The notes under the pieces: model-generated
What the model saw: only the letters and a program-made list of their open reading frames with translations
What the model was told of the DNA's origin: nothing
The model's database searches: none
In this document: piece by piece, positions 9,522 through 56,448 of the stretch
How the letters are laid out: each line of letters starts with the position of its first letter
Position numbering within the stretch: the first letter of the stretch is position 1
Position numbers and translations under genes: made by a program
NCBI GenBank assembly: GCA_947561395.2
Contig: OX387189.1
Span: 24,676,329-24,740,328 of the forward strand
Origin: Buxus sempervirens
Taxonomy: Eukaryota; Streptophyta; Magnoliopsida; Buxales; Buxaceae
DNA: 64,000 nucleotides
Direction of reading: 5' to 3'

Positions 9522-10716
9522 CTCATGCCTAAACTTTTAACTTTGGGGAAGTTTGCAAAAATGTGGAATAATAAGTCAATATAAGGCTACATTCTTCTCA
9601 TAACTTGTCTTTGAGATGAGTTAGAAATTAGTCTTATATTTGATTTGTTTTCAGAGCTAAGTCTTCAAAGAAAATCTCAAGTTTTAAGTCATCAAAACTT
9701 AAATAATCTTCGTGTTCTACCCCAAGAAAAGATCCTCCAAATAAGTGCATAGGTTTCTTGGGAACCTTGGAATCCCAAGCTTTTAAAAAGTCCTTTTGTG
9801 GGTCATTTGGAAACGATTGAATTCCAAGCAAATAACAACTCAAAATCAGAAATAAAAAGAATAAAAATTAAAAAAAAATCAACTTCTTTAAAGCAACTTG
9901 TGCTTCTTTTTCAACTCAAAGATTTTCAAAGAAGGTTCAAAAAAACATCATAGGCATGTGAAAGCTTTTGAATTTCAAATTTTATCAAGTTTATCATAGG
10001 CCTCTGAAAGCCTTTGAATTTCAGATTTTTAAGCTTCATAGGCCCTTAGAAGCTTGATTAATTCCATCAATCTTTTTCGGCCTTTGAAAGCCTTGGAATT
10101 TCAAAAAATCAATTCATAGGACAACTGAAGGCCTTTAAACTTCAGATTTCATGGGCCACCAGTAACCTTTGAATCCCAGATTTTTACAAGCCTTAGGAAA
10201 GCTTGAGTAATTCTTAATTTCATAGGTCTTCTAAAGCCTTAATTTAGAAACTCATGGGATTGTTGGAAGCCTAAACTTCCAGATTTTTCAAAACTTCATA
10301 GATATGAGGAAGCCTGCATAATTCCTCAACTCATAAGATGGCTGGAAGCCTGAAATTCAAGATTCTTCAAAAACTTCATAAGCCCTTGGACGCTTGCGCT
10401 CATTCCAAGAAATTTGTATAGGCCTAAGGAAGCCTCTTAATTCCTTAACACATAGGACCTCTGGAAGCCTGAAATTTCAGAATCTTATCTTCATAAGCCT
10501 CTAGAAGCTTGTGTGATTCTAGAAGCTTATGAAGGTCCCTGAAAGCCTGTGTAATTCCAGGAAGCTTTGGAAGCCTAAATTCCAAGTTCATAAGCCCTTG
10601 GAAGCTTGAGTAATTCGAAGACAATCCTGATTTGTCTAAAAACTTTCATTTTAGACATTTTATATCTTGTGGGACATGTTGGAAGCCCTAAAATATTCCA
10701 ACAATTCTTTGCACTT
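9522..10716 (+). repeat. Fragment of Tat-family leader with a hairpin array, present only in the left arm
   Basis: From about 9780 to 10690 the sequence is homologous to the leader of the gag-only Tat element at 41390-42000 (for example TTGAATTCCAAGCAAATAA and TTGGAAGCCCTAAAATATTCC words). It holds about 20 short hairpins with loops of GCCTNNGAA or GCTTG type. Examples: CTTGGGA/TCCCAAG at 9757-9779, CTGAAG/CTTCAG at 10125-10145, TGAGGAA/TTCCTCA at 10305-10328, TGTCTAAAA/TTTTAGACA at 10633-10657. It was either inserted in the left arm or deleted from the right arm; the join points share little sequence. Confidence 0.75.
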
Positions 10717-12138: not shown

Positions 12139-12140
12139 AT

Positions 12141-22657: not shown

Positions 22658-22659
22658 CT

Positions 22660-32678: not shown

Positions 32679-33029
32679 AATTTGGTTTTGTTGTATTTTG
32701 ATGAATATGCTAATGTACTATGAGCCGCTGCGGCACCTTTTTTTTTTTTAAGCATGAATTGCCTTTCTATTCTGTTATGTGTTCAAACTTAACAAAACAA
32801 GAACCTGAAATAAAAGAACTAATTCCCTCAAATAGGGCAACTCGGTCTCCAATAGACCATCTCTCTCAATAAATTGCAGAATTTCTGGTCGCTGCAACCC
32901 CTAACTCTTTTAATTGCATCTCTTTCATTGAGATCCTGAAAACCAGCAAGTGTTTAAAACACCCAAGAATTTGAGCTCAGATCACACCCGTCTGTATCTT
33001 TCCCAAGATCATTCGGTCAAATTTCTTTA
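32679..33029 (+). other. Spacer between ORF1 and the tandem array
   Basis: A/T-rich, no ORF or repeat recognised. Confidence 0.5.
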
Positions 33030-33526
33030 GGGCACCGAAACCGCCGACGGATGAGTCAGATATTGGTGGAGGAGCGTCTTGGCATAGCCTACCCCATTTA
33101 GTGACACCGAAGCCGCCGGTGATTGAATAAGATATTGGTTGCGGAGCGTCCGGGTACTACTAGCCGAATCCTTTAGGGCACCGAAACCGCCGACGGATGA
33201 GTCGGATATTGGTGGAGCAGCGTCCTGGCATAGCCTACCCCATTTAGTGACACCGAAGCCGCCGGTGATTGAATCGGATATTGGCTGCGGAGCGTCCGGG
33301 TACTACTAGCCGAATCCTTTAGGGCACCGAAACCGCCGACGGATGAGTCTGATATTGGTGGAGGAGCGTCCTGGCATAGCCTACCCCATTTAGTGACACC
33401 GAAGCCGCCGGTGATTGAATCGAATATTGGCTGCGGAGCGTCCGGGTACTACTAGCCGAATCCTTTAGGGCACCGAAACTGCCGACGGATGAGTCAGATA
33501 TTGGTGGAGGAGCGTCTTGGCATAGC
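33030..33526 (+). repeat. 146-bp dimeric tandem array, left segment
   Basis: Units start with GGGCACCGAAACCGCC at 33030, 33176, 33322 and 33468, exactly 146 bp apart. Each unit is itself a dimer of two related halves (about 72 and 74 bp, second half starting at CACCGAAGCCGCCGG), so this is a small higher-order repeat. It lies between ORF1 and gag of the Ogre element and continues at 50753 on the far side of the nested insertion. ATAGC at 33522-33526 is the left TSD copy of that insertion. Confidence 0.95.
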
Positions 33527-34130
33527 TGTAGACACCCAAAAATTGCACGATTTTTGATAAATCTTGAAGGAGAGAAATATTTTATTTAATTTTCAATTCT
33601 TAGCATTGGGTTTAAGATCCTTAACCCATTTGAATCCAAAGCCGCAAAGGAAAAGGCCCGAATTCAATCTTTTATGCAAAGTCAAACTTTTTCGGGTTGA
33701 ATTTTGTTGACTTTTGACCCCAGAAAATGAAATATTTTTTAAAGCAAGATTTAAAGATAATTTTTCCCGGTAATCAGGTTTTTAGCAATGTTATTGCATA
33801 AATGAATTTTTTGAGATTTTTAATCTTGACGAATACCTTGGTATTAACATGTTCAATCTTTTTACCGGACCTGAAAAATCGGAATTTAGCCTGGAACTGG
33901 AAAGTTGACTTTTTATTCACTTGGAATTTGGGTCTGGAAATATTTTTAATGGATTCAAATGGGGGGGTGTTTGCTTATTTACATGTAATATCTTAAGTAA
34001 ATGGAGATTAAAAAATACGAGGACATTTACTTAAACGATATTACATGTAAATAAGCCTGGCCTGTGCAGCTAAGGCTCAAAACCAACCAAAAGTGTGCTG
34101 ACCGTGGTATGTATGCGGTTTTTTATAATC

Positions 34131-34367
34131 TCGGTTTCAACCGCTCTGTATGTGCGGTTGCAACCGCACAGACAGCACGGTTCAGGTCCTTGCTTGTTGC
34201 GCTGGCGGCCACGTGGCTTCGCGAAGCTTCGGCCGTTAAGCCGCGTGGACAGCACTCAATTAAAGCATAACTGAATTGAACCGCCCTGTATATGCGGTTT
34301 GGTCAAATTTGTATTGAACCGCACTTTGAGTGGCGGTTCTGTAGAAACCGCACTGAGTATACGGTTT
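34131..34367 (+). promoter_or_regulatory. Cluster of AACCG...CGGTT inverted half-sites upstream of the TATA box
   Basis: Pairs at 34139-34159, 34279-34299, 34317-34338 and 34345-34367, all AACCGC or AACCG facing GCGGTT or CGGTT with about 9 to 11 bases between. A perfect 20-bp palindrome, TGTGCGGTTG plus its complement, is at 34151-34170. AACCG is a known core of plant MYB-type binding sites; MYB control of the LTR is an inference. The cluster sits 200 to 430 bp upstream of the TATA-like box and is repeated in the 3' LTR. Confidence 0.6.
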
Positions 34368-34567
34368 TGGCTGTTTCGAGGCTTTGCGAAATGGCTCGAT
34401 CTCTGAGCTTTATTTACGCATATTACCTCTCTCTTAGGGACTTGAACTCCCTATTTCACCCTCCGAAACTTGCTGAATTACACCAATTCAAGCCTTGGAG
34501 GAGATTTGGAATAATCTAGAAGGCCTTTTTGGCCTACCCTTGGGACTCTTCTACCCTTGGCTTGGCC

Positions 34568-34576
34568 TATAAATAG
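34568..34576 (+). promoter_or_regulatory. TATA box of the gag-only Tat LTR
   Basis: TATAAATAG in context CTTGGCCTATAAATAGAGAG, identical in the 3' LTR at 48918-48926. A classical plant TATA box; transcription would begin about 30 bp downstream. Confidence 0.65.
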
Positions 34577-36404
34577 AGAGGCCATCCTCTTGCAAATGGC
34601 TGGCAATTTGAAGCATAGAAGCTCTGCAAGAAGAAGAGAAACTCTGCTGGATTGTCTACTCAAAGCTCAAGCTACCTAAGGTAAAGCTCTCCTTTGGTTT
34701 TCCAGTACTCTCTTTACAATTCCAACTCCCATCTTCTACCTTTCTGTAGTGTAAGGCCTTTGTGCATTTTTGTAACCCCAAACCCCTTCTAAAGTACCTG
34801 GGAATCCTCTCTAGCCGTAAAACGTGAAGAGAGAGCCTGGGGAAAAGGAAGGTGGAATGGATCCTCTAGGTGTAGAACCTACAAGTGATGAAGAGCATGC
34901 TATGTGGTTATTTTGAACCTATGGATGTTTATTTTCTGATGTTTTGCACTTGCTCATGGAGAAATATGTGGATCCTTGCTCTCAGTAGCAAAGGATTCCA
35001 TCCTTCTCCTAGGGAGTGAATTTTCACTTGCTCACACACTTTCCACCACTTTTTATCAAAGAAGCTAGGCCTTGGATTTCCATGTTCAATACGGGAAATC
35101 TGAATCCATTGGCTTCAAAATGAATTTTAGAACTTCATAAGAAGGTTTTTTGTTAATTTCTGAGGTTTTGGTCGAATCCACATGCACACATGCACTGGTT
35201 TCCATGTTTCCTCTTCAAAATCTGCAAAACAGGACAGATCTGTGGCCTGTCTTGGAAGACTTATAACTTCATCCTCCGGATGAATTTTTGAGTGATTCCA
35301 AAGACATGTGATAGATGGATGTGTCTACTTAATATCTGGAAATTTTCGTCCACTTCCATGTAGCCAATTTTTGATACCATCTATTCAAAGTTTGTAAGAC
35401 AGTTCAGCCCAGATTGCTGAACTTGCCGCTTTGATGGTGCGCTATTTGCTCAGTTTTAATCTGTTTTATGTGATTCCAGTTTCTGAGTTTTGTTTGAGAA
35501 GTCTATTTTCATTTCCAACAAGTTTCAGCAGATTTCAATCTGTTTTGTGTCTTGGGTGTTCAGTTGACTCAGAAGTGCTCGCTGGCATAGTCCAGAGCTC
35601 ATCTGTGGTCTTCTAGGCCTGTTCAAGAGTGCACACAAGTCACATCCGGATAGAGATTGGTGTGAGGTTTTTTTCTTTGGAAAGATGGCACTACATAATT
35701 CCTCCACACTAATTTTCATGGATTTTTATTGAGCCAAACTCCACGAATAGAGCTTTGAAAATGCCTACTTAACACTTTTTCTGAGTTATAACAGCAGATT
35801 TCATACGTGGATTTCTCTCTAGTTTTGAATCGGATCGAGCTGAATTTCTTACTGTATATTCTAATATATACCAGTTTTCAAATGGCTTTGGTTTCATTTG
35901 ATTTAGATTTAAATTGAATGAGTTATGGTTTATCAAAGCTTTCAAGCTCTTTTGACCGAATTTCTCCAGATTTGCCTTTGCTTGATTTTCTTCATTTTTA
36001 CTTTGATTTCACATCCCTCATGAAGTTTTAGAAGTGATGAATCCACAAAGAGAGTCTAAACTCATTAGACTTCTCATGTGGAATGGTCACACACATTGTG
36101 CTTGTTAAGCACCTTTTTGTTAATTTTACTAGCAAACAATTTATAGCATAAGCAAACATGTGGTAACCGTCTTAGATGGATGAGTGGGGGTGCTTAACAC
36201 CTTCCCCCTCTCATAAGTAATTCCCCGTACCCAATCTCTGGATTTTTCCCTATATTAGAGCCACTTTGGCTCTATTTGACATCTATGAACCCTTTGGTGT
36301 CCATTTACACCTAAAAATGGATGGTGGCGACTCTTTACATTTTATCGATCCCCGCGTGACGATAATCGGAAGTCATCCGAGATGACGAATCCATGTCTCA
36401 CAAC

Positions 36405-36422
36405 TGGCGACTCTGCCGGGGA
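36405..36422 (+). other. Primer-binding site of the gag-only element, tRNA-Arg type
   Basis: TGGCGACTCTGCCGGGGA two bases after the LTR; it differs from the Ogre primer site at 29713 by a single base. Confidence 0.85.
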
Positions 36423-37132
36423 ACTAGTGGAATTAAGCCATGTTTTGATTGCTTGATCATGCTTTGATTGACTTTATCGATTGTTTGCTTTTTGTTTGTT
36501 TGTAATAAGCATGTTTGATTTGCGTGCTTCTATTTTAGAGAATATGAAACCCATGAGAATAGGGTATGTGATGTATGCTTGGTTGTGTTTAGAACCATGC
36601 TTAGGAAGGCCTAATTAGTCTTACCATGCTAGATCACTATGTTTCCATGATAGCATACTTTGATTTGTGATTAAATGTCATGAGCATGAGATCTGATTTT
36701 ATTTTTAGAGATGTTTTGAACATGTCAAGCATGCTCACCATAATCAAATGCTATTTTTGTATAACATAATAACATGCTTTCATGTTTGTATGATTGGGTG
36801 AATGCATGTTTAGATTGAGCATGCTAGGTGTTTTTTTTATTACCTTGATGTTTTCATGTTTATCTATCACAAATGATCTCTATATCATGCTTTTGTGGTT
36901 TTTGGATTGTGCTTGCATGGCTACGAAAAAAGAGTGGCAAGGGTGGGACGTTGTGTTGAATGTGACCCATCTTTTTCAAATGCACTTGTGCACCTTTTTT
37001 ATTGTTTACACAGCCTACCTATCACCTATAGGAAGTTGAACAAGAATGTGTGTAGCTTGGCGCACCGAGGTCGTTACTTCGGAAAGCGAAAGTGAAAACA
37101 TTCACCTTAGAGCTTTGAGCCAATGATGTGAT
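36423..37132 (+). other. Leader of the gag-only element, part before the solo LTR
   Basis: A/T-rich with many ATG and GCATG words; no supported ORF. Confidence 0.5.
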
Positions 37133-38004
37133 GACATTGTAAGACCCCAGTTTTGAGTAGAAAAAAAATCATATAATAATAATAAACAATATAAAATAGT
37201 AGATAAAATAAAATATATGCAAAAGTATGAACACATGGATTTATGGGCAGGCTTAATCAAAATTTATTTATTGCTGGAGATTTGTGGTCATTAGTTGTCA
37301 AAGAGAATAACCTTAAGTGGATGCGGGAAAATGTAGGGTTTTCAGTGGGCGAGCATGCACAGGATCAAGGCTTTTAAAAGGTTGTCGTGCGGCAATGCGT
37401 ATGGGAGCGTGTGGAAGGTATATATATACTAAAGGGGAAATTAGGGTTTTGGTTTTCGAATGCTCGCATCATATTTTTGTAACTGGGCGATTTGGCGATT
37501 GCGGCTGAAATGGCGATTAGGGTTTCGCTGGGAAGAGATGAGAACCGCAAGAGCTGCTAGGAGTTTATTGGAGTCGGATTTCAGTGGGTTATTCCTCTCG
37601 CGAGCAGGGGATCAGTTCGGCGACCTTCGCATCCACGCGCGCAGCCGGAAGTCATGCTCGGCCGGATGTGGAATAAGCTTTTGTTTCTCGGATTAAGCGT
37701 ATACTTGTGAGTAGCACTGTTTTATAACTGGGTTTGTGTTTTGGGTTTTTCTCGAGCTTATTCGGATGCATGTTTTGAATATTTAGTGATAGTATGAGGT
37801 TTTCTGTTTTTCTGGTTTTCGGAAAGTTGCATGAACAGAGTCTCCGGATTGAAGTTTTAATTGAAAATGAAAGTGTTTAGATTAATTTCAAATATGGTTG
37901 GGAAGTGTTCTGGGAGTATTAGGAGTGTATTGGAGCAATTACAGACCTAAACCAACCGGCCAGACTTGTAGATCTTGGAATAACAGAGAAACAAAAATCA
38001 CAGG

Positions 38005-38275
38005 GGGTATCCGCCCACCTCGCGCTCACCGGCGTTCACCTCGGAGGTAGGCGCCCTGTTAAAAATGACCTACCGCCGATCTCGCGCCCACCTCGCGCTC
38101 ATCTCACGCGAAGTAGAAAACAAGGCGCCGATCTCGCGCCCACCTCACGCCCATCTCACGCCCATCTCGCGCTCACCTAGCGTCGGGTGAGCGGCAGGTC
38201 GATTTTGCCCGTTTTCTTCACCGCTGACCGGCGCTCACCTCACGCCCACCTCGATAGGTGAGCGGCAGACCTATT
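38005..38275 (+). repeat. Short GC-rich repeat region in the solo LTR
   Basis: Many near copies of an 11-base word CTCGCGCCCAC/CTCACGCCCAT with inverted counterparts (AGGTGAGCGGCAG and GGCGCTCACCT). Strong compositional contrast with the A/T-rich rest of the LTR. Confidence 0.8.
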
Positions 38276-38873
38276 TTGCTTACCAAAATGGAATTTTTGA
38301 TTTGACCAAGAGTATTTGCACTTCTTAGGGGTTAAACCACTTCACTATTCACTTGGTTAGGAACCTGGGAAACCATTTTGCCTATGAAATTAATAGAGGA
38401 AAATTTTGTGAACATCTTATAAGTTTCAAGTTGGGTTTAGGTTACTTATGAGTATTGTGCCGGACACCAAACTAGTAAGAGTTACCAGTCACTTTTCCTT
38501 ATTCTATACACTGCTTTGATTGAGAAGTTCTTGTATTTCTGGTTTCACTTGTTGGAAACTTTATACGTATTGAATGGTTTTCTTTGGTATGAATGGATTG
38601 AGTTTTACTTTCATATGACTTGTGTTATGGAAATGAGAAAGTACCGAATGTACTTGAGGCACTGCTTGGTCCAGAGGGACAGGTGATGAATTGTGATGAG
38701 TAATTACATGATGTAGAAATGAATGGTTTGTTTTGATATTGAAATCGAGATTTTACGATGTTTACTGTTTTGGTCTAGCTTGTCCTGGATCCAGAGTCTA
38801 AGCTTAGTAATGTGATGTTATTGTTGGTTGTTGAAATTGCATGGCCTTGTGTGTTGCCACGACCGGTGTAGAG

Positions 38874-39301
38874 CAGCCAGAAATCCTGAGTAGGCCTGGT
38901 TGTCAATGCAGAAACCCGGGGAGTAGGCCTGCATTGGATGACGAAACCCTGAGTAGGCCGTCATTTCAGAGTATCCGAAACCCTGAGTAGGCCGGAACTG
39001 TGTACATGGAGGTGTGGAGTGTCTACTTGGCATGTTTAATTTATCAACTAAACGATAGTCATGACATTGACCAATGTTGGTACTTGATTTGGTTTGACAT
39101 GATATGTTTTATTCGCTGGTTTGTTGGTATTTATGGTTCATGGAATATTGTTTACCGATTATTGGGTATTGTACCTCCCGCCGGTGTAGAGCAGCCAGGA
39201 ACCCTGAGTAGGTCTGGTTGTCAATGCAGAAACCCGGGGAGTAGGCCTGCATTGGATGACGCAGTCATTTCAATATCCGAAACCCTGAGTAGGCCGGATA
39301 T
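38874..39301 (+). repeat. Two blocks of constant-loop hairpins in the solo LTR
   Basis: First block: stems CAGCCAG/CTGGTTG (38874-38902), CAATGCAG/CTGCATTG (38904-38936), ATGACG/CGTCAT (38938-38964), TCCG/CGGA (38974-38996), all enclosing a loop AAACCCTGAGTAGGC or a close variant of 15 to 17 bases. Second block about 318 bp downstream: CAGCCAG/CTGGTTG (39192-39220), CAATGCAG/CTGCATTG (39222-39254), a loop-less remnant of the ATGAC/GTCAT unit, and ATATCCG/CGGATAT (39273-39301). Confidence 0.9.
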
Positions 39302-39878
39302 ACATTTAGAGGCGTGGGCATGGTTATGAGAAGACTTGGTGTTATGTGACATTGGTATATCCGGAATTATATCTTGAGATACAAAATTATGCTTATTTGC
39401 TATGTTGTTGCCAATTAATCATTATTTTATCGATATCGTCGGGATTGGAAACGGATTGTTATTGCTTGATTTACCTGATGGTTTTCCGCACTGATATGAA
39501 TTGGATTATTGAAGTTTAGTCGGATTATTCGGAATATGCGTATTATCCTCATTGTACATGGTTATAATCGTGGCATGTTTTAGAACTGAAATAAATGTAT
39601 TTGTGCATGCATGTGCTGCTCACTGGGATATTCGTATCTCATTCCGTATTGTTTTGTTTTGTTTTCAGCTGTTCCTGGAGAGGACGATACTTGCGGGTAG
39701 TTACTTGGTCATGTGAGTTTATTTTCGTTTGGGATTATTTTAGCGCACTCTGTTATATAGTTTTTGTTGTATTCATGTTTTTCCTTCACTCTGATATTGC
39801 GATCCTGAGTTTTATAATAACCTCTGGAGACGAGTTACGGGTTTTTCATGTGACTCGGATCCGGGGCGTTACAGACAT

Positions 39879-41397
39879 GGTGGATCTAGAATTCTGGTCA
39901 TACACTAGGCTTGAGCTCTAAGTTGCCAATAAGCCAAAACCCAAAACCCCCACGCTTGAAGGTGGAGAAACACGTTTTTGGCCAAAGTAAACCAAATGCG
40001 ATGGGAAAAGGGTTTGTAATGAGGGAAGGCCGTTTTGCATGGCTCAGGTGACCCAAGGTATGATATAGATACCATTTTGAAGGTAAACATGAGGTATCAA
40101 GGTAATGTTAATTTCATTTTTATGATTGCCTTCGTATCATGCAAAGCCAAGTTCATGGTGTCCATTTTGTTGGGATTTTGTTTTTCCCAGAGAATTGCTG
40201 TATCCTAGGATTGGTGTAGCCCATAGGAAGAGTTTTAACTCTTCTTAGAGGTCATTCTACCCAAATGCCCATAGGAGGCAACCCAAAGTCCAAGATCCAT
40301 GCATTAGGTGTCCATTTTGGTGGGAGCCTAGGCCCCCCTTTGTTTAAATATTACTAATCCTCTTCTTTGCAGGAAAGTTGCATGGGAATGACACCCAGGA
40401 GCTGCGTAGAGGGCATCCTCTAATTTTAGTTTAGGATTTTTCTTCCTCTTTTCAAGCCCAAGGAGGCTAAATTGTAATTTTATTTTGACTCATGCCCCTT
40501 GAAGGCCAAGTTGTATTGTAATTCATTTCCTTTATTGTAAGGGATCTTTTTGTGCATATGTGTGGTCCCCTCATACAATCTCATGAAATTCATGGTATAA
40601 GTGGGTTTTTAGTACCATTTGATGTGTCAAATGCCCAATTTGGGGTAATCTGGAAGCCACCCAATGGTGAACACTGTGTTTGGACAAGTAACCAAGCTAA
40701 TAAAACCAGTCAGAAAAAGAAACAATTCGAAAATCTGATTTCTGGTTTAAAACCGTCCTGAATATGCGGTTTCCTGCATTTTTGATGCAACCGTAGAATT
40801 TATGCGGTTTGGGCCAAACCGTTCTGAATGCACGGTTTTAAGCCGAAATTCTGTTCCAGCCTTGCTTATCAAACATTTCTGGGTCCTTTCATCCCTAAGT
40901 CATATAAGCAAATGGGCAGGGGTTCCAAATAAGATAAATGGCATTTAAACCATTCCAAATCCACCAAAATCAAGAGATTAAGGTCATTTTGAACATATTC
41001 ACCTAAATTGAACAAATTAACTCAACTCAAAGGTGAAAATGATAAAATAAAAGTTGGTTCAGACCAAAAAACAGGTCAAGTACCTCAATTTGGGGGTTAA
41101 GTCCACATTGGGCTCTTTTTGTCCAGTTTGAACACTTAACCCATCTTAAATGAAGTAAATGATTAAAAGAGAATTGGTTCAAATAACCAACCTAATCATA
41201 CTTCAATCTGAAGAATTGAACTTGGAAATCACAATAAGTTTCCAAAACATGTTAAGCTTAAAGTGTAATACAATTCATGAAAGGAAGCTCAACTCTTTTA
41301 AAATGGGGCAAATTCCAATCAAAAATCAATCTATAAGAAATCTTTAATCATAAAGTGTTCAAACTTTTAAGATTTCTTCCAAAGAGCAATTGGGTCA
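39879..41397 (+). other. Leader of the gag-only element, part after the solo LTR
   Basis: No ORF. 40750-40838 holds three more AACCG...CGGTT hairpins like those of this element's LTR (AAACCG/CGGTTT at 40750-40772 and 40816-40838, AACCG/CGGTT at 40789-40809). Confidence 0.6.
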
Positions 41398-42835
41398 CTT
41401 GGAAACCTTTGAATTCCAAGCAAATAATCATTTAAAAATCAAGTGAAAGGAAAATTTTAAATAAATCATCTCCTCGAAAGCAATTTGAGTCTCTTTTTAA
41501 CTCAAAAACACCTAAGGGGAAATCAAAAATCTTTTAGGCATCTGAAAGCCTTGGAATTTCAGAAAATCAAATCATAGGACCCTGGAAGCCTGAAATTCCA
41601 GATTTTTATCAAAACCCTCATAGGCCTTCTAAAGCCTTAATTTAGAAACTCATAGGACCCTGGAAGCCTGAAATTCCAGATTTTTTCAAAATCTCATAGG
41701 ACCCTGGAAGCATGAAATTCCAGAAATTTCCAAAACTTCATAGGCCTAAGGAAGCCTGCGTAATTCCTTAACTCATAGGATCTCTGAAAGCCTGAAATTT
41801 CAGAACTTTATCTTCATAAGCCTCTAGAAGCTTGCGTGATTCTAGAACCCTTCATAGGCCCTTGAAAGCCTGCGTAATTTCAAGAGGCTGTGGAAGCCTT
41901 AATTCCAAAGCATAAGCCCTTGGAAGCTTGCGTAATTCCAAGTTGTGATTTGTCTAAGGACTTTTACCTTAGACATCTCATTTTTGTGGGACGTTGGAAG
42001 CCCTAGAATATTCCAGCATTGGTGGGTCTTTTTCGTACCAACCAATTCATAAGCCCTTGGCAGCTTGCGTAATTCCAAGTTGTGATTTGTCTAAGGGCTT
42101 TTACCTTAGGTATCTCATTTTTTGTGGGATGTTGGAAGCCCTAGAATATTCCAACAAATCCTTTGGATGGTCTTTTTCATACCAACCAATTCATAGGCCT
42201 CTAGAAGCCTGAGTAATTCTTGAAACCTTTTGCTTGGGCCGTCTATAAGCCTCTGAATTATAGACACAATCCTTTGGGCCGTCTAAAAGCCTCTGAATTT
42301 TAGACACAACCTTTTTGGGCCGTCTATAAGCCTCTGAATTATAGACACATATCTTGGGCTGTCTAAAAGCCTCTGAATTTTAGACACTACTTTTTTGGGC
42401 CGTTTGAAAGCCTCTGAATTTCAAACATCATTTCTTTTGGGCCGTCTATAAGCCTCTGAATTTTAGACACAAACTTCTTTTGGGCCGTCTAAAAGCCTCT
42501 GAATTTTAGACACCACATATCTTGGGCCGTCTAAAAGCCTCTGAATTTTAGACACTACCTTTTTGGGCCATTTGAAAGCCTCTGAATTTCAAACATCATT
42601 TCTTCTGGGCCGTCTAAAAGCCTCCGAATTTTAGACACCTGCATAAGCCTCTAGAAGCTTGCGTGATTCTAGAACCCACTCATAGGCCTTCTAAAGCCTG
42701 AATTTAGAAAAATCATAGGATTTCTGAAAGCCTTTAAATTTCAGAACTCATATCTTAGGCCGTCTAAAAGCCTCTGAATTTTAGACATTTCTCATTCTTT
42801 GGGACCTTTTGGAAGCCCTTAAATTCCATATTTTT
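41398..42835 (+). repeat. Array of about 30 constant-loop, variable-stem hairpins
   Basis: Each unit is a 5- to 9-bp stem around a loop that begins GCCT or GCTT. Examples: CTTGGAA/TTCCAAG 41398-41420; TCTGAAA/TTTCAGA 41541-41563; CTGGAA/TTCCAG 41582-41601; TAAGGAA/TTCCTTA 41747-41770; TCTAGAA/TTCTAGA 41823-41846; CTTGAAA/TTTCAAG 41861-41884; TGTCTAAGG/CCTTAGACA 41951-41975. From 42236 a 40-bp tandem repeat (GGGCC plus hairpin) carries the loop GCCTCTGAA with stems GTCTATAA/TTATAGAC (42241-42265), GTCTAAAA/TTTTAGAC (42281-42305) and GTTTGAAA/TTTCAAAC (42402-42426). Only a few units have a mismatch. Confidence 0.92.
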
Positions 42836-43110
42836 TTGGATGGTCGTTTGTACCAACCATTTCTTTTCACAAGGTCAATTTCGGCCAAAACAAAAAAAAG
42901 AAAAAGTTTAAAAATAAGAAAAAACAAAAGAAAAAAAATTGTAATTCAGACGCATGTTCACCCAAACATGCATACATGCATTCTTGAAAGTGTGTGAGTT
43001 TAACTTGAAAGGTGCACTAATTGTGTTTCTTTTCTTTTCTTTCAAAAGGTTTTCAGCTCCTACCTGCAACCATTGCTCCCAGGCGCTCTCAGAGACTAAG
43101 ATCTGCCACC
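42836..43110 (+). other. Segment before gag, with a possible splice acceptor
   Basis: A/T-rich; a pyrimidine run followed by CAAAAG at about 43030-43048 and AG-ending sequence before the gag ATG could be a 3' splice site, in keeping with the long structured leader. Inference. Confidence 0.35.
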
Positions 43111-45072
43111 ATGAACCCTATTGAAGAACAATCAACCGTGTCCGCTGAAGCCTTTGCTCAGTTACAAGAGCAAGTGGCAGGGATGACCAAACTACTGGAA
43201 AACTTGCTGTCTAATCAAGCAGCCCAAGCCCAGATGCAGGCGCAACAGGCGCAAACCCAAGCCCAGGCTCCGGCTCAGGTTCACCAAGCCTCATCATCCC
43301 ACAATGCACCTCCACCCCAGGCCAACATTCCGCCACCAATTCAACCTATCCTCGAACTTCAGCCTGAATTCCACCAACCTATCCCAGAGCCCATATTGAT
43401 TAGGGAGGAGTCAGGGGAATATGAGAAGGAGAAGGAGAAGGAGCGATTGAGGGTGGAAATGGAGAAGAAATTTCTCGATAGGCTGGAATCAATACAGGAA
43501 GAGCTGAGAGAAGTCAAGGGGGTCAACACATTTGGGGGCACTAACTTTGAAGATCTGTGCATGTATTCGGATGTATGCCTCCCGCCCAAATTCAAGTCCC
43601 CGGACTTCGAGAAGTATGATGGCACTGGGTGCCCGATGAGTCATTTGAAACTATATTGTGGGGCATTATGCCAATTTGGGAAGGATGATGGAATCCTAGT
43701 CCAACTGTTTCAAAGGAGTCTGACGGGGTCTGCTTTAAGGTGGTTCTCCACTGTGGATCACTCAAGGATTAAGAAATGGAAAGACTTAGCTGATGCATTC
43801 CTGGCACAATACCGGTTTAATTCAGAGATTATTCCTGACCGGTATGATATGATGAGGATGGTGAAAAGAAATGATGAAACCATTCGAGAGTATGCGAAAA
43901 GGTGGAGAGAATCAGCTGCACAAGTGAGGCCACCCATGGGGGAACAAGAAATGATCTCCACTTTTATCACTACATTGGGGCAACCTTACTACAATCATTT
44001 GGTGGGCCAGACCACCACCAGTTTCGCTGCTTTAGTGCAAGTGGCAAACAGGATAGAAGATGGGATCAAGGCTGGAAGAATAATTGATTACTCGGCAATG
44101 ATGAATCAGCAAGCTTCCACCACTTTTTCTGCACATAAAAAAGAGAATGGTAATGGAAGAAAGAAGAATGAGGAAAGGAGAGAAACAGAAGTTAATATGG
44201 TGCAGCCACCTAGACAACCTTTTCAAATCAATGTCAAGTCCCCCATTCTTGCCAAACCCATTCATCCAGCTCCCTTACCTCCCATTCAAATAAATGTACC
44301 TTCAGTACAGCCTGTCAATGAGGAAATGGAAGTAAGGAAGAGAAGGGAGTTTTCAAAACTTCCCATGAAACCATCTGAACTCTTACCTACTTTACTTCAG
44401 GAGGGGTATGTGACGTTGAAACAGCCAAATCCTCATGCTAGTAAAGGCAAGAACTATGATGCATCGGTGACATGTGACTTTCACATGGGAACTCCAGGCC
44501 ATACTACAGATCGTTGTTTGGCTTTAAAGCATGCAATTCAGGATTTGCTGGATAACAATTCTTTATCTTTTAATTCAACCACACCAGCTCCTCACCCCAA
44601 TGGCAATAATGTGGCAAGCACATCGAATACAGTTGGAGTCATTTCAGTTGAAAGTAGATACTTTGACCCTTCTCAACTTATTGCTCCTATAGGGTCAACT
44701 GTCTGGGTTTATTTTGAAAGGGAAGAAGAACAAGAAGTCAACATAGAAAAGGGGGCAGAGTCAATTGAGAAAGAAGGATGGCAGAGAAAGAATGGGGGTG
44801 TTTTCAAAGAAAAAAATGAGGCAAAGGTTGAATTCATTTTGCCGCACATTGATTGGGCAGTTGTTCAAGTTCCAGATCAAGTAACGCCATTCCTTCCAAG
44901 GGCTGAGCATGATGCCCTAAATATGAAGACAATTGCTAAACAAAGAAAGGAATTCTTGCCTCACTCAGCAGAAGGTGAAAATTTTTGCAAAATTGGGGAA
45001 AAATCAACTTTTGCCTTTGAGAACAGGGGCAATTTTCGAATTCCCACGTTCTCTGAAAAGAAAACCCCATAA
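43111..45072 (+). CDS. gag: Intact Tat-type Gag, 653 residues
   Basis: I choose the ATG at 43111 because of its strong context GCCACCATGA; the open frame extends 90 bases further upstream without another ATG. Residues 1-60 are followed by a Gln/Ala/Pro-rich linker (about 33-85) and a charged helix (to about 140). The Gag core spans about 145-340, with YDGTGCPMSHL, LTGSALRWF and REYAKRW motifs. A zinc-knuckle-like CDFHMGTPGHTTDRC (CX2HX6HX4C-like spacing, about 455-469) follows. The core aligns well with the outer Ogre Gag. Translation ends shortly after the RYFDPSQLI block, before any protease. No stop or frameshift: the only undamaged retroviral gene of the two Tat elements. Gag builds the cytoplasmic particle; pol functions would have to come from another element. 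Confidence 0.88.
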   Translation: MNPIEEQSTVSAEAFAQLQEQVAGMTKLLENLLSNQAAQAQMQAQQAQTQAQAPAQVHQASSSHNAPPPQANIPPPIQPILELQPEFHQPIPEPILIREESGEYEKEKEKERLRVEMEKKFLDRLESIQEELREVKGVNTFGGTNFEDLCMYSDVCLPPKFKSPDFEKYDGTGCPMSHLKLYCGALCQFGKDDGILVQLFQRSLTGSALRWFSTVDHSRIKKWKDLADAFLAQYRFNSEIIPDRYDMMRMVKRNDETIREYAKRWRESAAQVRPPMGEQEMISTFITTLGQPYYNHLVGQTTTSFAALVQVANRIEDGIKAGRIIDYSAMMNQQASTTFSAHKKENGNGRKKNEERRETEVNMVQPPRQPFQINVKSPILAKPIHPAPLPPIQINVPSVQPVNEEMEVRKRREFSKLPMKPSELLPTLLQEGYVTLKQPNPHASKGKNYDASVTCDFHMGTPGHTTDRCLALKHAIQDLLDNNSLSFNSTTPAPHPNGNNVASTSNTVGVISVESRYFDPSQLIAPIGSTVWVYFEREEEQEVNIEKGAESIEKEGWQRKNGGVFKEKNEAKVEFILPHIDWAVVQVPDQVTPFLPRAEHDALNMKTIAKQRKEFLPHSAEGENFCKIGEKSTFAFENRGNFRIPTFSEKKTP

Positions 45073-47833
45073 AAAGAATGCACATTTCCTAAGGATCCTA
45101 AGGAGCCTTGTTCTCAGGAAGTTATTTCAATAAAGGCTCTTGGAAAAAAAAAAAAAGAAGATTTTTCCCTTAAACATTTTTTTAGAAGTAAAAAAAAAAA
45201 AAGTTTTCAATAGTGTCCTTTTTACTTATGAGTCATATCTCCTATTAAATTTCATGAAATTGAATATAACTTCGACATTGGGCTCAATTTCGAGACCAAA
45301 ATCGAAGAAAACGACACTCTAAATGAAAATTCCAATCTTTTTAAGTGTCATGAGAAGAATATTTTGCAAAATTTTGAAATGACCAATCTTATGGACTTTG
45401 GAATCAGAGATGACCCGTAGTTTTCACTTGAAAGCAGCAAGTACGGAAATTTATTCAGAGAGGATTGCATCATTTGCTCGTCAAGGAGAAGCCAATGGAG
45501 AAGAAACCAAAGGAAGAGATCTTTGCATCTGAAGATGACTCCTAGCTTGCATTCTGCATTGAAAAATATGAAAAGATTTGGTTCCTTGGTTGAGACAGGA
45601 ATTGCGATTTTGCTACAAAATCTAATGAAAAGGAGGCGTGATTCAAGAGGCTAATCCAGTGAGAAGGATGTTTTATGGTTATCTTGACAGGTGGTGCTGA
45701 TTGAAAAAAAAAAACAACAAAAAAAAAAGAAAGAAATGGAAAAATCTTGAGCCAGTCATGTAGTGCAACTCTACTAAGTCTGAAAATTCAAATTTTTCTT
45801 AAAATGATAAGAGGCCTTTCTTTCTTTATCCCTGAAATCTTTGAAATCCCTAGTTAGACCCTTTGAGCTTTATAAATTTTTCCAAATAACCTAAACTGGG
45901 AATTGTAACCCCACACTGGGGCAAATTTATTAAGGCATAAAAGAAGAAGAATGAAAGGACAAATTAAAAAAAAAAAAAAAAGAAGGGGGCACTATTGAAT
46001 TTCAAAATGGATTTTGAAGATGTTTTCAGAAAAGGGGGCAAAGAAATGAAAAAATAAAAAAGAGAAGAAGAAGAAAGATGAGAAAAAAAGAAAAGAAAAA
46101 GATCATCAAATGCCATGGGATATTTGGAGAATGTCTTCCAAAAGGGGCAATAAAAATTGTAAAGAGAAAGAATGAGAAAAGAAGTTCAATACCGGGGTGA
46201 AAGTTCTAAAGGAAGAAGAACTTCAATACTGGAGGCAATTTTTGTATTCCAAGGAAAAAATGCCATAAGAATTACAATCTCAGTTAACCCATTTGATCAT
46301 ATGGTATTTGAACCTTTTACCCATTTTCTTCTTAAACAAAAACCAAGCCTACATTTCGTCCCTTTCATAAGTCCTCTTTGATTAAGAAATTTTGAATTAA
46401 GGCAAGTATGACTACATTAGCTTCTGGTAATGAAGGATTAAAAAGAAAAAGAAAAAAAAATGGAGAAAATGTAGTGAAAACCCGGAAGGACACTACATGG
46501 TAAATAATCAACCATCTACAAGGAGAAAACCAATGGTGTCATATGAGAGGAGAAGTCCATGATTGTCATGAAATATGAGGGAGTTTTCATATCATGGATG
46601 CAAGAAATAACTTTTTCAAGTTGAAGGTCTTTACAAACTGGGGCAAAATAGTCAGATTGAAAGAGCTACCATATCTGGAGCATCAATTGACAAGCCGATG
46701 GTCATGGGAATGATTCTAAAGGTTCCGAAGGTTTATTTTGGTCTTTCTTCATTTTCTGAAATAATCTTCTCATTATTCAACTTGATTTTAATTCTTTTGG
46801 ACTATATGCTAATAAGTGATTGGATCAGTTTTTCAAAAACAAAAGAAAGAACAAAAAAGCAAAAATTATATTTTGGCCTATGATGAGCATCTATGTCTTT
46901 TCATAAAACATTGGTTTTGCAAGCATTAGAGAATTCTGAGGCCACTAGTATAAAACCTATTTTTTATATGCACTTTTGCATTCTTTTATAAGGATTTCTT
47001 TTTATGAAGGCAAAAAGAAAAAAAAAGAGAAAAAAAGAAGAAGAAAAATGAAAACAAAAGAAGAAAAAAAAAAAAGAAAAGAGAAAAAATTCATCTCTGC
47101 TGTGAGGTAAGTGCATTTCCAAAGCATCAAGGCTGGGGCATGCTCAATTTCCTTTGCTTCTGAATCCTCAATGAAAGGAATCGTATCATCCTAAAGATTG
47201 GGCAATGCCTCCAAACAAGAGCCCTTATCTTTCAATCATGAAGATGGCATTCAGTTTGGTAGTAAGAAGGCATGAAAGAGAGAACATGGGCAGTAAGGGT
47301 ATGAGGTTAGATCAACAGATCATGATTCTCAAATCCAGCAATCAAGAAAAGAGCATACACTTGGGCAGTTAAAAAGCACCAAGGCAGGGTATGGGCAGCA
47401 AGGGCACATACATCATTATTGAGAGAGCAAAAAGATGAAAAAGCAAAAGCAAGTTGCTAAAACATTCAAGCACAGGTTTGGGCAGCACATGGCACCCAGG
47501 TGAGTCAATAAAAATCAAATCATGAAAAATTCAATGAAATATTTCCTTCCTTATTGTTAAGCTGAAAAGTGAAAAACGTCAAAAGCAATTGAGTTTGCAG
47601 AGGTCAATTTTAAATCCACCTTTTTTTTAAAATTTGCTTGTTTCAGATTTCTTTCCATAGCCACGAGAGCTCCGAGAGATCTGAGATAAGGAAGAGACGC
47701 CACCCCATCAGACTTCAAGCAGGGGTTTCATTGGCTATCTTCAAAATCATGTTTTTTATCACTCATTTGTTTGACCAAAGCAAGTTCAACTGATGAGATG
47801 TCTTTCAAACGTGCAATTTTGGGTTGTGTCTAT
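45073..47833 (+). other. Pol-less 3' region of the gag-only element
   Basis: 2.8 kb, rich in GAAAAAGAAAGAAG purine runs. No protease, RT, RNase H or integrase fragment seen in any frame. A block at about 46310-46480 (CCAAGCCTACATTTCGTCC, then GTGAAAACCCG) resembles the outer element's 3' region at 60155-60290, so the 3' ends are related. Confidence 0.7.
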
Positions 47834-47877
47834 TCTTTGCTGTTCATTGTCTTACAACTCCAGCAAAGAGGGGCAGT
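47834..47877 (+). other. Polypurine tract preceded by a hairpin (gag-only element)
   Basis: TCTTTGCTG (47834-47842) pairs with CAGCAAAGA (47861-47869), and the 3' arm runs into the purine tract GCAAAGAGGGGCAGT that ends at the LTR. The outer Ogre has the same arrangement at 61883-61928. Confidence 0.75.
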
Positions 47878-50752
47878 TGTAGACACCAAAAAATTGCACG
47901 ATTTTTGATAAATCTTGAAGGAGAGAAATATTTTATTTAATTTTCAATTCTTAGCATTGGGTTTAAGATCCTTAACCCATTTGAATCCAAAGCCGCAAAG
48001 GAAAAGGCCCGAATTCAATCTTTTATGCAAAGTCAAACTTTTTCGGGTTGAATTTTGTTGACTTTTGCCCCAGAAAATGAAATATTTTTTAAAGCAAGAT
48101 TTGAAGATAATTTTTCCCGGTAATCAGGTTTTTAGCAATGTTATTGCATAAATGAATTTTTTGAGATTTTTAATCTTGACGAATACCTTGGTATTAACTT
48201 GTTGAATCTTTTTACCGGACCTGAAAAATCGAAATTTAGCCTGGAACTGGAAAGTTGACTTTTTATTCACTTGGAATTTGGGTCTGGAAATATTTTTAAT
48301 GGATTCAAATGGGGGGGTGTTTGCTTATTTACATGTAATATCTTAAGTAAATGGAGATTAAAAAATACGAGGACATTTACTTAAACGATATTACATGTAA
48401 ATAAGCCTGGCCTGTGCAGCTAAGGCTCAAAACCAACCAAAAGTGTGCTGACCGTGGTATGTATGCGGTTTTTTATAATCTCGGTTTCAACCGCTCTGTA
48501 TGTGCGGTTGCAACCGCACAGACAGCACGGTTCAGGTCCTTGCTTGTTGCGCTGGCGGCCACGTGGCTTCGCGAAGCTTCGGCCGTTAAGCCTCGTGGAC
48601 AGCACTCAATTAAAGCATAACTGAATTGAACCGCCCTGTATATGCGGTTTGGTCAAATTTGTATTGAACCGCACTTTGAGTGGCGGTTCTGTAGAAACCG
48701 CACTGAGTATACGGTTTTGGCTGTTTCGAGGCTTTGCGAAATGGCTCGATCTCTGAGCCTTATTTACGCATATTACCTCTCTCTTAGGGACTCGAACTCC
48801 CTATTTCACCCTCCGAAACTTGCTGAATTACACCAATTCAAGCCTTGGAGGAGATTTGGAATAATCTAGAAGGCCTTTTTGGCCTACCCTTGGGACTCTT
48901 CTACCCTTGGCTTGGCCTATAAATAGAGAGGCCCTCCTCTTGCAAATGGCTGGCAATTTGAAGCATAGAAGCTATGCAAGAAGAAGAGAAACTCTGCTGG
49001 ATTGTCTACTCAAAGCTCAAGCTACCTAAGGTAAAGCTCTCCTTTGGTTTTCCAGTACTCTCTTTACAATTCCAACTCCCATCTTCTACCTTTCTGTAGT
49101 GTAAGGCCTTTGTGCATTTTTGTAACCCCAAACCCCTTCTAAAGTACCTGGGAATCCTCTCTAGCCGTAAAACGTGAAGAGAGAGCCTGGGGAAAAGGAA
49201 GGTGGAATGGATCCTCTAGGTGTAGAACCTACAAGTGATGAAGAGCATGCTATGTGGTTATTTTGAACCTATGGATGTTTATTTTCTGATGTTTTGCACT
49301 TGCTCATGGAGAAATATGTGGATCCTTGCTCTCAGTAGCGAAGGATTCCATCCTTCTCCTAGGGAGTGAATTTTCACTTGCTCACACACTTTCCACCACT
49401 TTTTATCAAAGAAGCTAGGCCTTGGATTTCCATGTTCAATACGGGAAATCTGAATCCATTGGCTTCAAAATGAATTTTAGAACTTCATGAGAAGGTTTTT
49501 TGTTAATTTCTGAGGTTTTGGTCGAATCCACATGCACACATGCACTGGTTTCCATGTTTCCTCTTCAAAATCTGCAAAACAGGACAGATCTGTGGCCTGT
49601 CTTGGAAGACTTATAACTTCATCCTCCGGATGAATTTTTGAGTGATTCCAAAGACATGTGATAGATGGATGTGTCTACTTAATATCTGGAAATTTTCGTC
49701 CACTTCCATGTAGCCAATTTTTGATACCATCTATTCAAAGTTTGTAAGACAGTTCAGCCCAGATTGCTGAACTTGCCGCTTTGATGGTGCGCTATTTGCT
49801 CAGTTTTAATCTGTTTTATGTGATTCCAGTTTCTGAGTTTTCTTTGAGAAGTCTATTTTCATTTCCAACAAGTTTCAGCAGATTTCAATCTGTTTTGTGT
49901 CTTGGGTGTTCAGTTGACTCAGAAGTGCTCGCTGGCATAGTCCAGAGCTCATCTGTGGTCTTCTAGGCCTGTTCAAGAGAGCACACAAGTCACATCCGGA
50001 TAGAGATTGGTGTGAGGTTTTTTTCTTTGGAAAGATGGCACTACATACTTCCTCCACACTAATTTTCATGGATTTTTATTGAGCCAAACTCCACGAATAG
50101 AGCTTTGAAAATGCCTACTTAACACTTTTTCTGAGTTATAACAGCAGATTTCATACGTGGATTTCTCTCTAGTTTTGAATCGGATCGAGCTGAATTTCTT
50201 ACTGTATATTCTAATATATACCAGTTTTCAAATGGCTTTGGTTTCATTTGATTTAGATTTAAATTGAATGAGTTATGGTTTATCAAAGCTTTCAAGCTCT
50301 TTTGACCGAATTTCTCCAGATTTGCCTTGGCTTGATTTTCTTCATTTTTACTTTGATTTCACATCCCTCATGAAGTTTTAGAAGTGATGAATCCACAAAG
50401 AGAGTCTAAACTCATTAGACTTCTCATGTGGAATGGTCACACACATTGTGCTTGTTAAGCACCTTTTTGTTAATTTTACTAGCAAACAATTTATAGCATA
50501 AGCAAACATGTGGTAACCGTCTTAGACGGATGAGTGGGGGTGCTTAACACCTTCCCCCTCTCATAAATAATTCCTCGTACCCAATCTCTGGATTTTTCCC
50601 TATATTAGAGCCACTTTGGCTCTATTTGACATCTATGAACCCTTTGGTGTCCATTCACACCTAAAAATGGATGGTGGCGACTCTTTACATTTTATCGATC
50701 CCCACGTGACGATAATCGGAAGTCATCCGAGATGACGAATCCATGTCTCACA
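47878..50752 (+). repeat. 3' LTR of the gag-only Tat element
   Basis: 2875 bp, TGTAGACACC to CTCACA, nearly identical to 33527-36402. Followed by TSD ATAGC (50753-50757). Confidence 0.95.
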
Positions 50753-51170
50753 ATAGCCTACCCCATTTAGTGACACCGAAGCCGCCGGTGATTGAATCGG
50801 ATATTGGTTGCGGAGCGTCCGTGTACTACTAGCCGAATCCTTTAGGGCACCGAAACCGCCGACGGATGAGTCGGATATTGGTGGAGGAGCGTCCTGGCAT
50901 AGCCTACCCCATTTAGTGACACCGAAGCCGCCGGTGATTGAATCGGATATTGGCTGCGGAGCGTCCGGGTACTACTAGCCGAATCCTTTAGGGTACCGAA
51001 ACAGCCGACGGATGAGTTGGATATTGGTGGAGGAGCGTCCTGGCATAGCCTACCCCTTTTTGTGACACCAAAGCCGCCGGTGATTGAATCGGATATTGGC
51101 TGCGGAGCGTCTGGGTACTACTAGCCCAATTCTCAGTTTGCCAAAGCCGTCGACGGATGAGTCGGACGTA
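50753..51170 (+). repeat. 146-bp dimeric tandem array, right segment
   Basis: Continues in phase from 33526 once the nested element and one ATAGC are removed. About 2.5 more units, becoming more diverged toward the right end (CCAAAGCCGTCGACGG at 51140). In all, about six units. Confidence 0.93.
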
Positions 51171-51762: not shown

Positions 51763-53229
51763 ATGGACCGACAAGGAGAGCAGACGCCGCCAGGGCAGCA
51801 TCCGGCAGAACCTAGTCACGCACAAGTAGTCAATGAGATGCAACAGAGAATTGACGGCATGAGTTCCATCATTCAGGAACTAATGGCTGAGCTGAGAGAA
51901 TTAAGACAGGCCCCACCAGTGGCACCAGTCGCCCAGCAACCGCCACAAGCAGAAGTAGCACCACCGCCGCGTCCAGCGAACCCCCCTCCCCTAGCACCAC
52001 CACCACCACCGGCGGTGCCATTCCATGTTCCCCAACCAGATCAGTTTCTGCCTATCCAACTGGGGCAAGACGATGAGGATTGGTACAGGACCCAGGAGAT
52101 ACAGTTTGAGGAGAAGCTGACAGCAGTGAGAGAAGAGAACAGGGCAGAGATGGCCACCTTGAAGGAACAGCTCAAATAGCTCCAACCAAGCACAGTGCAG
52201 AGTGAGGCTACCCTGGAAAGCCTCTGCTTCTTTTCAGACATCCAACTCCCGGCCAAGTTCAAGTGCCCTGAGTTACACCAGTTCGATGGCACCGGGTGCC
52301 CACTAAACCACTTGAGGTCGTACTCAGGCGACATGTGTCAGTACGCTAAGGAAGAACGGATCATGGTGCAGTTCTTCCAGAAGTCATTGACTGGGGCCGC
52401 TTACTCCTGGTTCCTGAGTTTGGACAAGGCCAAGATCAAGACATGGAACGATTTGGCAGCTGTCTTCATTCAGCAGTATCGCATGAACAGTCAGATTGTG
52501 CAGACTAGGGCAGAATTGCAGAGGCTGGCTAAGAAGAGCCAGGAATCAGTGAGAGAATATGCCAAGCACTGGAAGGAGCTGGCAGCATTAGTGCAGCCAC
52601 CTTTGCTGGAGCAAGAGATGACGTCGTTGTTCATTGCGTCATTGGGTCAGCCCTTCTTCACTCTGCTGCTAGGGCAGAGCACGTCGAATTTCAATGACTT
52701 GATCCTGACGGCAGATCGGATTGAAGCTGCAGTAAGAGCCGGAAAGATAGATGGCAGTGGACAGAGTGCCCCACCAAGAAGGCCTGTGACTGGGAAAACT
52801 AGTAGAAACCAGGGGCAAGAGCCCAAGAGGCAGGAACAGCAAGCCGTGAACTACATGTACCCGGTACAGCCCCACCACTTCTCCCAAAGACCAGAGGCAG
52901 TGGAACCCCAAGGAACCGGGTAGGCCACCTACCAAGGGATGAGAAGGACAAGAGAAGAAATGGAAGCTAGGATGAAGCGGGTTTTCACTCCACTCCCATA
53001 CGCACTAGCAGAGTTACTGCCTACTTTGCTGAAGAAGGGATACTTGCAAGTCAAGCCCCTGAACCCCAGATTGGTCAATGCCAGAAGCTACAATGCGGCG
53101 GAACGGTGCGAGTACCATTCCGGTGCTCCAGGGCACCACACTAATCGGTGTTGGGACTTAAGGCATGATATCCAGGACTTGATTGATAGCAAACGTATCA
53201 CGGTTGACCCCCCGGCCCCACTAGCTTAA
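51763..53229 (+). pseudogene. gag: Ogre gag region
   Basis: Starts at the ATG at 51763 (MDRQGEQTPPGQ) or the in-frame ATG at 51664. An N-terminal Pro/Ala-rich linker with a short coiled coil is followed by the Gag core from about 52195 (FDGTGCPLNHL, LTGAAYSWF, REYAKHW), then a zinc-knuckle-like CEYHSGAPGHHTNRC at about 53108-53152. Stops at 52177 and 52921 interrupt it and a TAA at 53227 closes it. The core is clearly related to the Gag of the nested element (43111-45072), but the linkers differ. Located directly after the tandem-repeat leader. Confidence 0.88.
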
Positions 53230-56200: not shown

Positions 56201-56448
56201 AACAAAAAGAACAAAAAGAAATTGAAAAGCCAATGCAAATGGCAGCAATAAATGAAGAGCATGGGCCGGTGTTCAATCCTGAAAATGAGCAAGGACTCAA
56301 CAGGTTAGATCGCGACACCAGCCCATCGCAGCAAGGAAATCCAAACATCGTCCCCTGTGAGCCTTTCGAGCATGAGGACGACGATGAATCGTGGGAGACC
56401 CCGCTCGAAATTCAACTTGCGTTGGAAAGACATGAAAAGGGTCTCTAG
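53245..56448 (+). pseudogene. pro: Ogre Gag tail, aspartic protease and linker
   Basis: 53245-54204 is a Pro/Ser/acid-rich tail beginning near the FDPSVLIG block that is also found in the nested Gag; it ends at the TAA at 54202. From 54280 (722 open codons) come the aspartic protease, with MIDNGSALN and its catalytic Asp at about residue 127 of that segment, and a G-patch-like WGLRAGEGLGRYKQG at about 292-306, typical of Tat-lineage Pol. A long, weakly conserved linker follows, with acid- and Gln/Lys-rich patches (EQKEQKEQKE). The segment ends at the TAG at 56446. Protease would cleave the polyprotein inside the particle. Confidence 0.85.

Follow-up and report, generated by a model that had tools for sequence, protein, structure and literature searches.

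Within the window (the whole stretch of DNA analysed here, 64 kb), an LTR element with gag as its sole recognised gene carries about 30 tandem units near the end of its leader, whose stems differ from unit to unit while both arms remain complementary. In most units, a second complementarity joins the beginning of the loop to the linker 5' of the stem. We infer that the + strand RNA folds into pseudoknots and that selection on this RNA maintains the array. This selection on the sense RNA is favoured because of the pairing pattern, the restriction of the second helix to one topology and the retention of the array across families. Our best explanation, to which we give a probability of roughly 0.45, is that the array works in cis as a multivalent structure on the genomic RNA, which Gag most likely reads for packaging.

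The gag-only element and its hairpin array

The whole element spans 33527-50752 (17.2 kb). Its two LTRs, both on the + strand, are located at 33527..36402 (TG...CA) and 47878..50752; a BLAST self-match pairs 33524-36403 with 47875-50753 at 99.2% identity, and the ends were read in the sequence. A target duplication, ATAGC, flanks both LTRs at 33522-33526 and 50753-50757. Also read in the + strand sequence are a putative primer binding site, presumably matching a tRNA, three bases past the 5' LTR (36405..36422) and a putative polypurine tract 5' of the 3' LTR (47862..47876). The leader from the primer binding site to gag is 6.7 kb long. Array A (41392..42835, + strand; supported by the stem scan and 27 genome copies) is situated near the leader's end, directly upstream of gag (43111..45072, + strand, 653 codons), which was recognised as an open reading frame, by its match to Pfam Retrotrans_gag (E = 1.8e-12) and by its dN/dS (see below). 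Six gag relatives were found, named plant proteins among them, and the best is 41-42% identical, in Tetracentron.

According to the ORF list and Pfam, the LTRs enclose no recognised gene other than gag, and seven other ORFs reach no Pfam cut-off. As in the TR-GAG class, there are two LTRs with a target duplication and a gag domain with no other coding domain; TR-GAG elements are small, however, and the 17.2 kb of this element may not fit. The label "Tat" is tentative and rests on the resemblance of its gag and on a 43% frame match between a related locus (L068) and an Ogre/Tat-like ORF of the neighbouring element; the element itself has no reverse transcriptase. BLAST self-comparison places the insertion within a 146-bp tandem repeat. 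The 146-bp repeats at 33025-33526 and 50753-51166 belong to the neighbouring element, the target of the insertion, which has a gag-like ORF at 52195-52923 and another ORF at 54280-56448.

The first-pass annotation had described about 30 tandem hairpins at 41398-42835, and the stems and loops quoted in it are present there. We counted non-overlapping perfect stems with loops of 3-14 nt in this stretch and in 100 dinucleotide shuffles of it. There are 28 stems of at least 6 bp; the shuffles average 5.6 and never exceed 10, so they do not match the stem number. For stems of at least 7 bp the counts are 25 against 1.7 (maximum 5), and for at least 8 bp, 12 against 0.59 (maximum 4). The same annotation held that something maintains the pairing of the arms, and arm exchange agrees: arrays A and B together (array B is described below) have 29 distinct arm pairs, which form 165 of 174 possible Watson-Crick pairs, compared with a mean of 107 (maximum 127) over 2000 exchanges. 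The stems, here referred to as S2, are thus very probably maintained. The arms of unit 42444 are mismatched, but such units are rare.

Two candidate marks were given up. Folding energy does not distinguish array A, since its two halves have z-scores of -3.7 and -3.1 and an upstream control stretch, with -3.9, folds equally well. An excess of G.U over A.C in S2 of the window units (6 versus 1) was dropped as proof of RNA selection because the preference is weak over the 27 copies. A further type of hairpin, whose 3' arm is conserved (TGG..GGT / ACCAACCA) and which lacks linker pairing, was seen at 42020, 42164 and about 42838-42862, the last of these read by eye.

A probable second helix and pseudoknot layout

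The loops had been described as constant. Shared loop types do exist, but the first four bases of the loop vary together with the linker 5' of each stem, to which they are complementary (AGGC/GCCT, AAGC/GCTT, GGG/(G)CCC, AGGT/ACCT). This complementarity, like array B, goes beyond the earlier description. A typical unit can be written as 5'-x(4)-L1(1-2 nt)-arm1(7-8)-x'(4)-L3(3-6 nt)-arm2-3'. Arm1 and arm2 are complementary, x and x' are also complementary in most units, and both pairs vary pairwise across units, arrays and families. The order x-arm1-x'-arm2 is that of an H-type pseudoknot, with zero bases between arm1 and x'. The second helix (S1) has 3-4 bp and S2 6-8 bp, while L1 is mostly 1 nt and L3 mostly 3, 5 or 6 nt long. 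For example, the unit at 41818..41846 (+ strand), with S1 AAGC/GCTT, consists of x (41818-41821), L1 (41822), arm1 (41823-41829), x' (41830-41833), L3 (41834-41839) and arm2 (41840-41846). The unit at 41856..41884 (+ strand) has the same layout with S1 AGGC/GCCT. Units at 42236..42786 (+ strand) are mostly of the GTCTAAAA/GTCTATAA/GTTTGAAA types, with S1 mostly GGGC/GCCT (one G.U), and this region includes three other unit types at 42645-42746 (+ strand).

We counted as canonical those units whose loop starts with GC, with AC, or with one base and then GC; 10 of the 59 window units were left out by this definition and 49 remained. A perfect four-pair S1 is present in 17 of the 49, compared with 8.0 on linker exchange (maximum 16 in 5000 exchanges). 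Among the 27 copies there are 751 canonical hairpins, 533 of which reach an S1 of at least three pairs plus wobble, and S1 is absent or imperfect by this threshold in the other 218. S1 is perfect in 284 of the 751, against 162 on linker exchange (maximum 180 in 200 exchanges). Both linker exchanges apply the same register choice to the controls.

Four topologies were compared. In the window, the pairing of the 5' linker with the loop start is in clear excess (3.38 versus 2.45), and the other three are inside the shuffle range. Over the 27 copies the corresponding values are 3.43 and 2.44; the 3' flank with the loop start barely exceeds the shuffles (2.19 versus 2.13, maximum 2.16) and the remaining two topologies do not. 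We then scanned for strict pseudoknots, with a 4-bp S1, an S2 of at least 6 bp and Watson-Crick pairs only. On the + strand of the window 16 places were obtained, 14 of them within arrays A and B, which make up 2.4 of the 64 kb; the - strand gave 7 places, one within an array. In the 27 arrays, 254 sense pseudoknots, at least four in each copy, compare with 21 antisense and 2.8 in shuffles. The minus-strand count serves to control for topology and nothing else, because the parts of such a knot stand in mirrored order in its complement.

By a crude energy rule, the knot beats the hairpin in 37 of the 39 knot-capable units among 47 examined. One nucleotide can span the deep groove of an S2 of 6-7 bp, but not the shallow groove; an S2 of 8 bp is a limiting case, across which an L1 of 1 nt fits only tightly. 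Because only the deep groove can be spanned in this way, the knot should be confined to the + strand RNA, which is the sense strand of gag. Judging from the sequence, it is probable that most of the units form H-type pseudoknots in the + strand RNA.

Related copies and other carriers of the array

A search of the same genome (676.5 Mb) yielded at least 78 matches. We cut out 30 loci and analysed 27 copies, leaving out L012, L016 and L029 as duplicate or overlapping. The 3' flank of the array and/or gag is found no more than 1.5 kb downstream in 25 of the 27, and a gag start in 24; L010 and L020 have neither 3' flank nor gag within 1.5 kb downstream of the array. In 14 copies we read the 10 kb that follow the array. 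All 14 have gag, which is stop-free and full-length in six, and a window-type LTR starts at 4.9-7.6 kb in 11. A motif check for Y.DD of reverse transcriptase gave no hit in any other sense fragment of at least 120 aa in these copies, in agreement with the first description of the element as gag-only. The dN/dS of gag is 0.09-0.22 where a pair has a dS of at least about 0.2; the closest pairs, with few changes between them, give 0.34-0.75. Gag is under purifying selection.

There are two gag subfamilies, separated by a dS of 1.6-2.2 (0.8-1.25 for L032). Over aligned columns, array A shares 82-98% identity with the other 26 arrays. In L018, the array is 96% identical to array A and the gag start only 78%. 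Relative to the window element, L005, L007, L015 and L018 are mosaic, with leader or array stretches at 94-99% and gag starts at 77-78%. It appears that the subfamilies have exchanged array and gag, which would be expected if the RNAs were packaged together and template switching occurred.

On the tree of copies, 83 double changes were found in S2, in comparison with 4-11 when the partners were slid by 1-3 columns, and 20 in S1 (units with short L1), in comparison with 0-8; part of these double changes are whole-unit replacements. We also set close units free of gaps against L001 (343 comparisons, 3.7% divergence). In S2, one-sided cells number 86 versus 175 expected and double ones 7 versus 1.1; in S1, the numbers are 48 versus 79 and 0 versus 0.5. 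Wobble changes are hardly commoner than mismatches, with 112 Watson-Crick-to-G.U and 87 Watson-Crick-to-A.C edges among the 27 copies; distinct G.U and A.C changes in the close units number 15 and 15 in S2, and 10 and 5 in S1. With a tree built without S1, there are 8 double changes of S1 on the diagonal and 0-2 off it, and permutations give a mean of 3.3 and a maximum of 8 (n = 30). Choosing the S1 register for maximal pairing gave 8 double changes versus 1.5 (maximum 5, n = 100), but this choice is biased towards structure and is not counted as support.

We further assembled an equal-length set of 21 hand-picked units, 18 of them distinct. Ten rows, from L067-L069, were taken from the strict list and therefore pair by selection; the 11 window rows, which do not come from that list, all pair at the varying S1 position (6 AU, 5 GC). 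At one S1 position all 18 distinct units are paired, 10 of them with AU and 8 with GC, and in five S2 pairs both bases differ between units. The covariation score of the 18 units is 0.479, versus 0.204 when shuffled and 0.015-0.222 when slid. For S1 only it is 0.314 versus 0.181 shuffled, and 0.245 with a +1 slide. Further pair types are not raised in this set (9 versus 11.1). Arm 1 TCTAGAA or CTTGGAA occurs with both S1 types, the CTTGGAA case resting on a strict-list row. The case for S1, and with it slightly that for the pseudoknot, is weakened because the +1 slide score is near the real one and the equal-length rows are partly selected.

Array B (9751..10703, + strand) is built like array A but has diverged from it; it lies in another repeat family, immediately 5' of a TATA-like sequence (TATATAAACC). 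Thirteen units are homologous between arrays A and B (91 pairs). Four double compensatory changes were counted where 0.38 would be expected (P = 0.0006 with the rate of the stems themselves, P = 0.07 assuming 20% divergence), and 3 pairs are broken in B against 13.4 expected. The repeat of array B is present at 25 places including the window's own, with 96-100% identity over the full or nearly full 1188 bp. Its flanks are alike in all 10 other copies checked, with 98.6% identity across 6 kb upstream, so that array B is part of a larger repeat. In 12 kb read, none of its ORFs looked gag-like. The array B repeat is young and distinct from the family of the gag-only element. A reading of array B as a solo LTR was considered for its TG start, CA end, duplication of 4/5 and an inverted relative lacking the array, and was rejected for the same likeness of the flanks in 10 copies.

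The window has a large repeat at 3531-26029, which is interrupted by a copia element and has near-identical genome copies. This large repeat contains array B and an internal inverted repeat, 9213-12145 versus 12301-13431 plus 23845-24476, one arm of which is without the array. The Ty1/copia element (13431-23845, with reverse transcriptase RVT_2) has tandem constant-loop hairpins in its LTRs at 13600-14000 and 22830-23230 on the minus strand. Their loops are TGGATT or TGGACT, with stems such as CAGCTTG/CAAGCTG, CAGTTCG/CGAACTG and GTAGG/CCTAC, unrelated to array A; we rejected them as the same system, as linker-loop pairing was not seen by eye.

Seven further matches of array B begin at an identical query base, 9748. 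Three of these loci were retrieved and represent a third type, in which the array precedes a gag with 72-73% DNA identity to that of the window element, and they have 8, 10 and 6 strict knots in the sense direction and 3, 3 and 0 in antisense. In L068, a frame after gag is 43% identical to part of the neighbouring ORF 54280-56448 and looks protease-like, with no match in Pfam; the next 3 kb hold the end of this frame and no further sense ORF of at least 90 aa. Related arrays are thus found in three repeat families or types, with a protease-like frame at one locus.

Possible function, alternatives and known systems

The first-pass annotation had left two causes of the maintained pairing side by side, namely selection on an RNA structure and a DNA process that corrects one arm to the other. 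Selection on RNA fits better because the linker-loop helix co-varies too, in one topology, although the close-copy test was mixed (S2, 7 versus 1.1; S1, 0 versus 0.5). Template switching in quasi-palindromes, at the DNA level or in reverse transcription, could match the arms without any function; about equal G.U and A.C changes would suit it, and the mosaic copies show that exchange between copies occurs. Such a process leaves a second helix of 3-4 bp in one topology unexplained, and the mismatched unit 42444 shows that recombination can break stems, yet this is rare; we regard it as very improbable. There is somewhat more room, while still little, for the idea that only the S2 hairpins are kept and that linker-loop complementarity is a relic of a founder unit or a switch of two alternative hairpins, with no coexisting pseudoknot. 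The zero compensatory changes of S1 in close copies and the 218 of 751 units with absent or imperfect S1 point that way, but several S1 types have changed on both sides, even with identical arm 1, and S1 exceeds the exchanged-linker controls.

Other readings accept the folds and give them a different task. The leader may recruit ribosomes or set the gag start, like the tobamovirus upstream pseudoknot domain or a structured 5' UTR. Some 275 nt separate the end of array A from the gag ATG. Within the array ATG is rare (3 at 41398-42835, 17.4 in shuffles), a depletion not shared by the leader upstream; this scarcity is a weak sign of a scanned 5' UTR because the repeated units are not independent, and array B has 7 ATG. 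Thirty stable folds would also block scanning, and between array A and the ATG, at 43021-43060, a pyrimidine tract followed by AG resembles a 3' splice site by eye, which would make array A intronic. A role in translation seems rather unlikely to us. The array could also be an element for RNA export or stability, by which unspliced RNA leaves the nucleus or resists 5'-3' decay. This reading seems unlikely to us; elements of this sort are usually single or few structures. In its favour, the array is repeated and structured, and the MusD transport element is described as using a pseudoknot and kissing loops (PMC12786077).

We return to a multivalent structure of the genomic RNA. Binding of genomic RNA is a known role of Gag in LTR elements. 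Packaging or dimerisation is our first choice because Gag is the sole recognised protein here and binding genomic RNA is its known job, and we assign packaging to the array tentatively, at somewhat under even odds. Counted in its favour are the position in the leader by gag (25 of 27 copies), the sole recognised gene, the dN/dS of gag, the presence in three families and the exchange of array and gag between subfamilies. A structure repeated many-fold with free stems fits a multivalent protein-binding region. In such a model, the units would be repeated docking sites for Gag, or for a host protein, on the unspliced genomic RNA, and the array would be a multivalent packaging or dimerisation region. 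Stem sequences could drift freely if only the fold and a few bases were read, and repeat number would confer avidity. A module common to gag-only and gag-protease elements could allow them to be packaged together. It is possible, though on balance doubtful, that these arrays represent a new kind of RNA element, in which tens of short H-type pseudoknots with drifting, co-varying helices form an exchangeable module of at least three plant repeat families, gag-only and gag-protease ones among them, and serve as a multivalent Gag handle that packages a non-autonomous element and its partners.

LTR retrotransposons fill much of plant genomes, and to our knowledge their packaging signals in plants are poorly known. 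Each element offers about 30 internal replicates, and the dozens of copies include natural variants in which the pairing persists; the arrays would be a ready source of data on what is read by Gag or by the host, and they could show how gag-only elements exploit autonomous ones. The tobamovirus upstream domain has three consecutive knots. If our reading is true, tandem pseudoknots would be extended from the 2-4 units of a viral leader, as described in PMC9203018, to tens in a genome-resident element.

The earlier statement that no element of this kind had been described agrees with what was searched. Rfam gave no match in the 64-kb window and nothing near the cut-off in 41300-42900. No array of pseudoknots or hairpins in a plant retrotransposon is described in the parts consulted of open-licence papers, including PMC12786077, PMC11381356, PMC10226581, PMC9203018, PMC5382211 and PMC10552921, which are weak evidence of absence. 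TR-GAG elements are likewise non-autonomous LTR elements with a gag domain and no pol, but in the text consulted of PMC10552921 no such array is described, and the window element has 17.2 kb and a 6.7-kb leader. The functional pseudoknot of the Ty1 leader and the predicted pseudoknots of Ty3 RNA are also in the genomic RNA of LTR retrotransposons; as presented in PMC11381356, however, they are single structures, those of Ty3 lying within GAG and POL, and form no array. The nearest known systems are the tandem pseudoknots of foot-and-mouth disease virus (FMDV) and the tobamovirus upstream pseudoknot domain. The latter also places pseudoknots in an untranslated region of a plant RNA, but in the 3' UTR, where it stimulates translation, whereas array A is in a 5' leader (PMC5382211). 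The 5' UTR of FMDV has 2-4 tandem H-type pseudoknots in units of about 48 nt with both helices co-varying; they are reported as essential for infectious virus, and a role in assembly is suggested by the authors (PMC9203018). Array A resembles them in its probable tandem H-type pseudoknots in an untranslated leader, and differs in that its loops pair upstream instead of downstream, that it has about 30 units instead of 2-4, and that it belongs to a plant LTR element.
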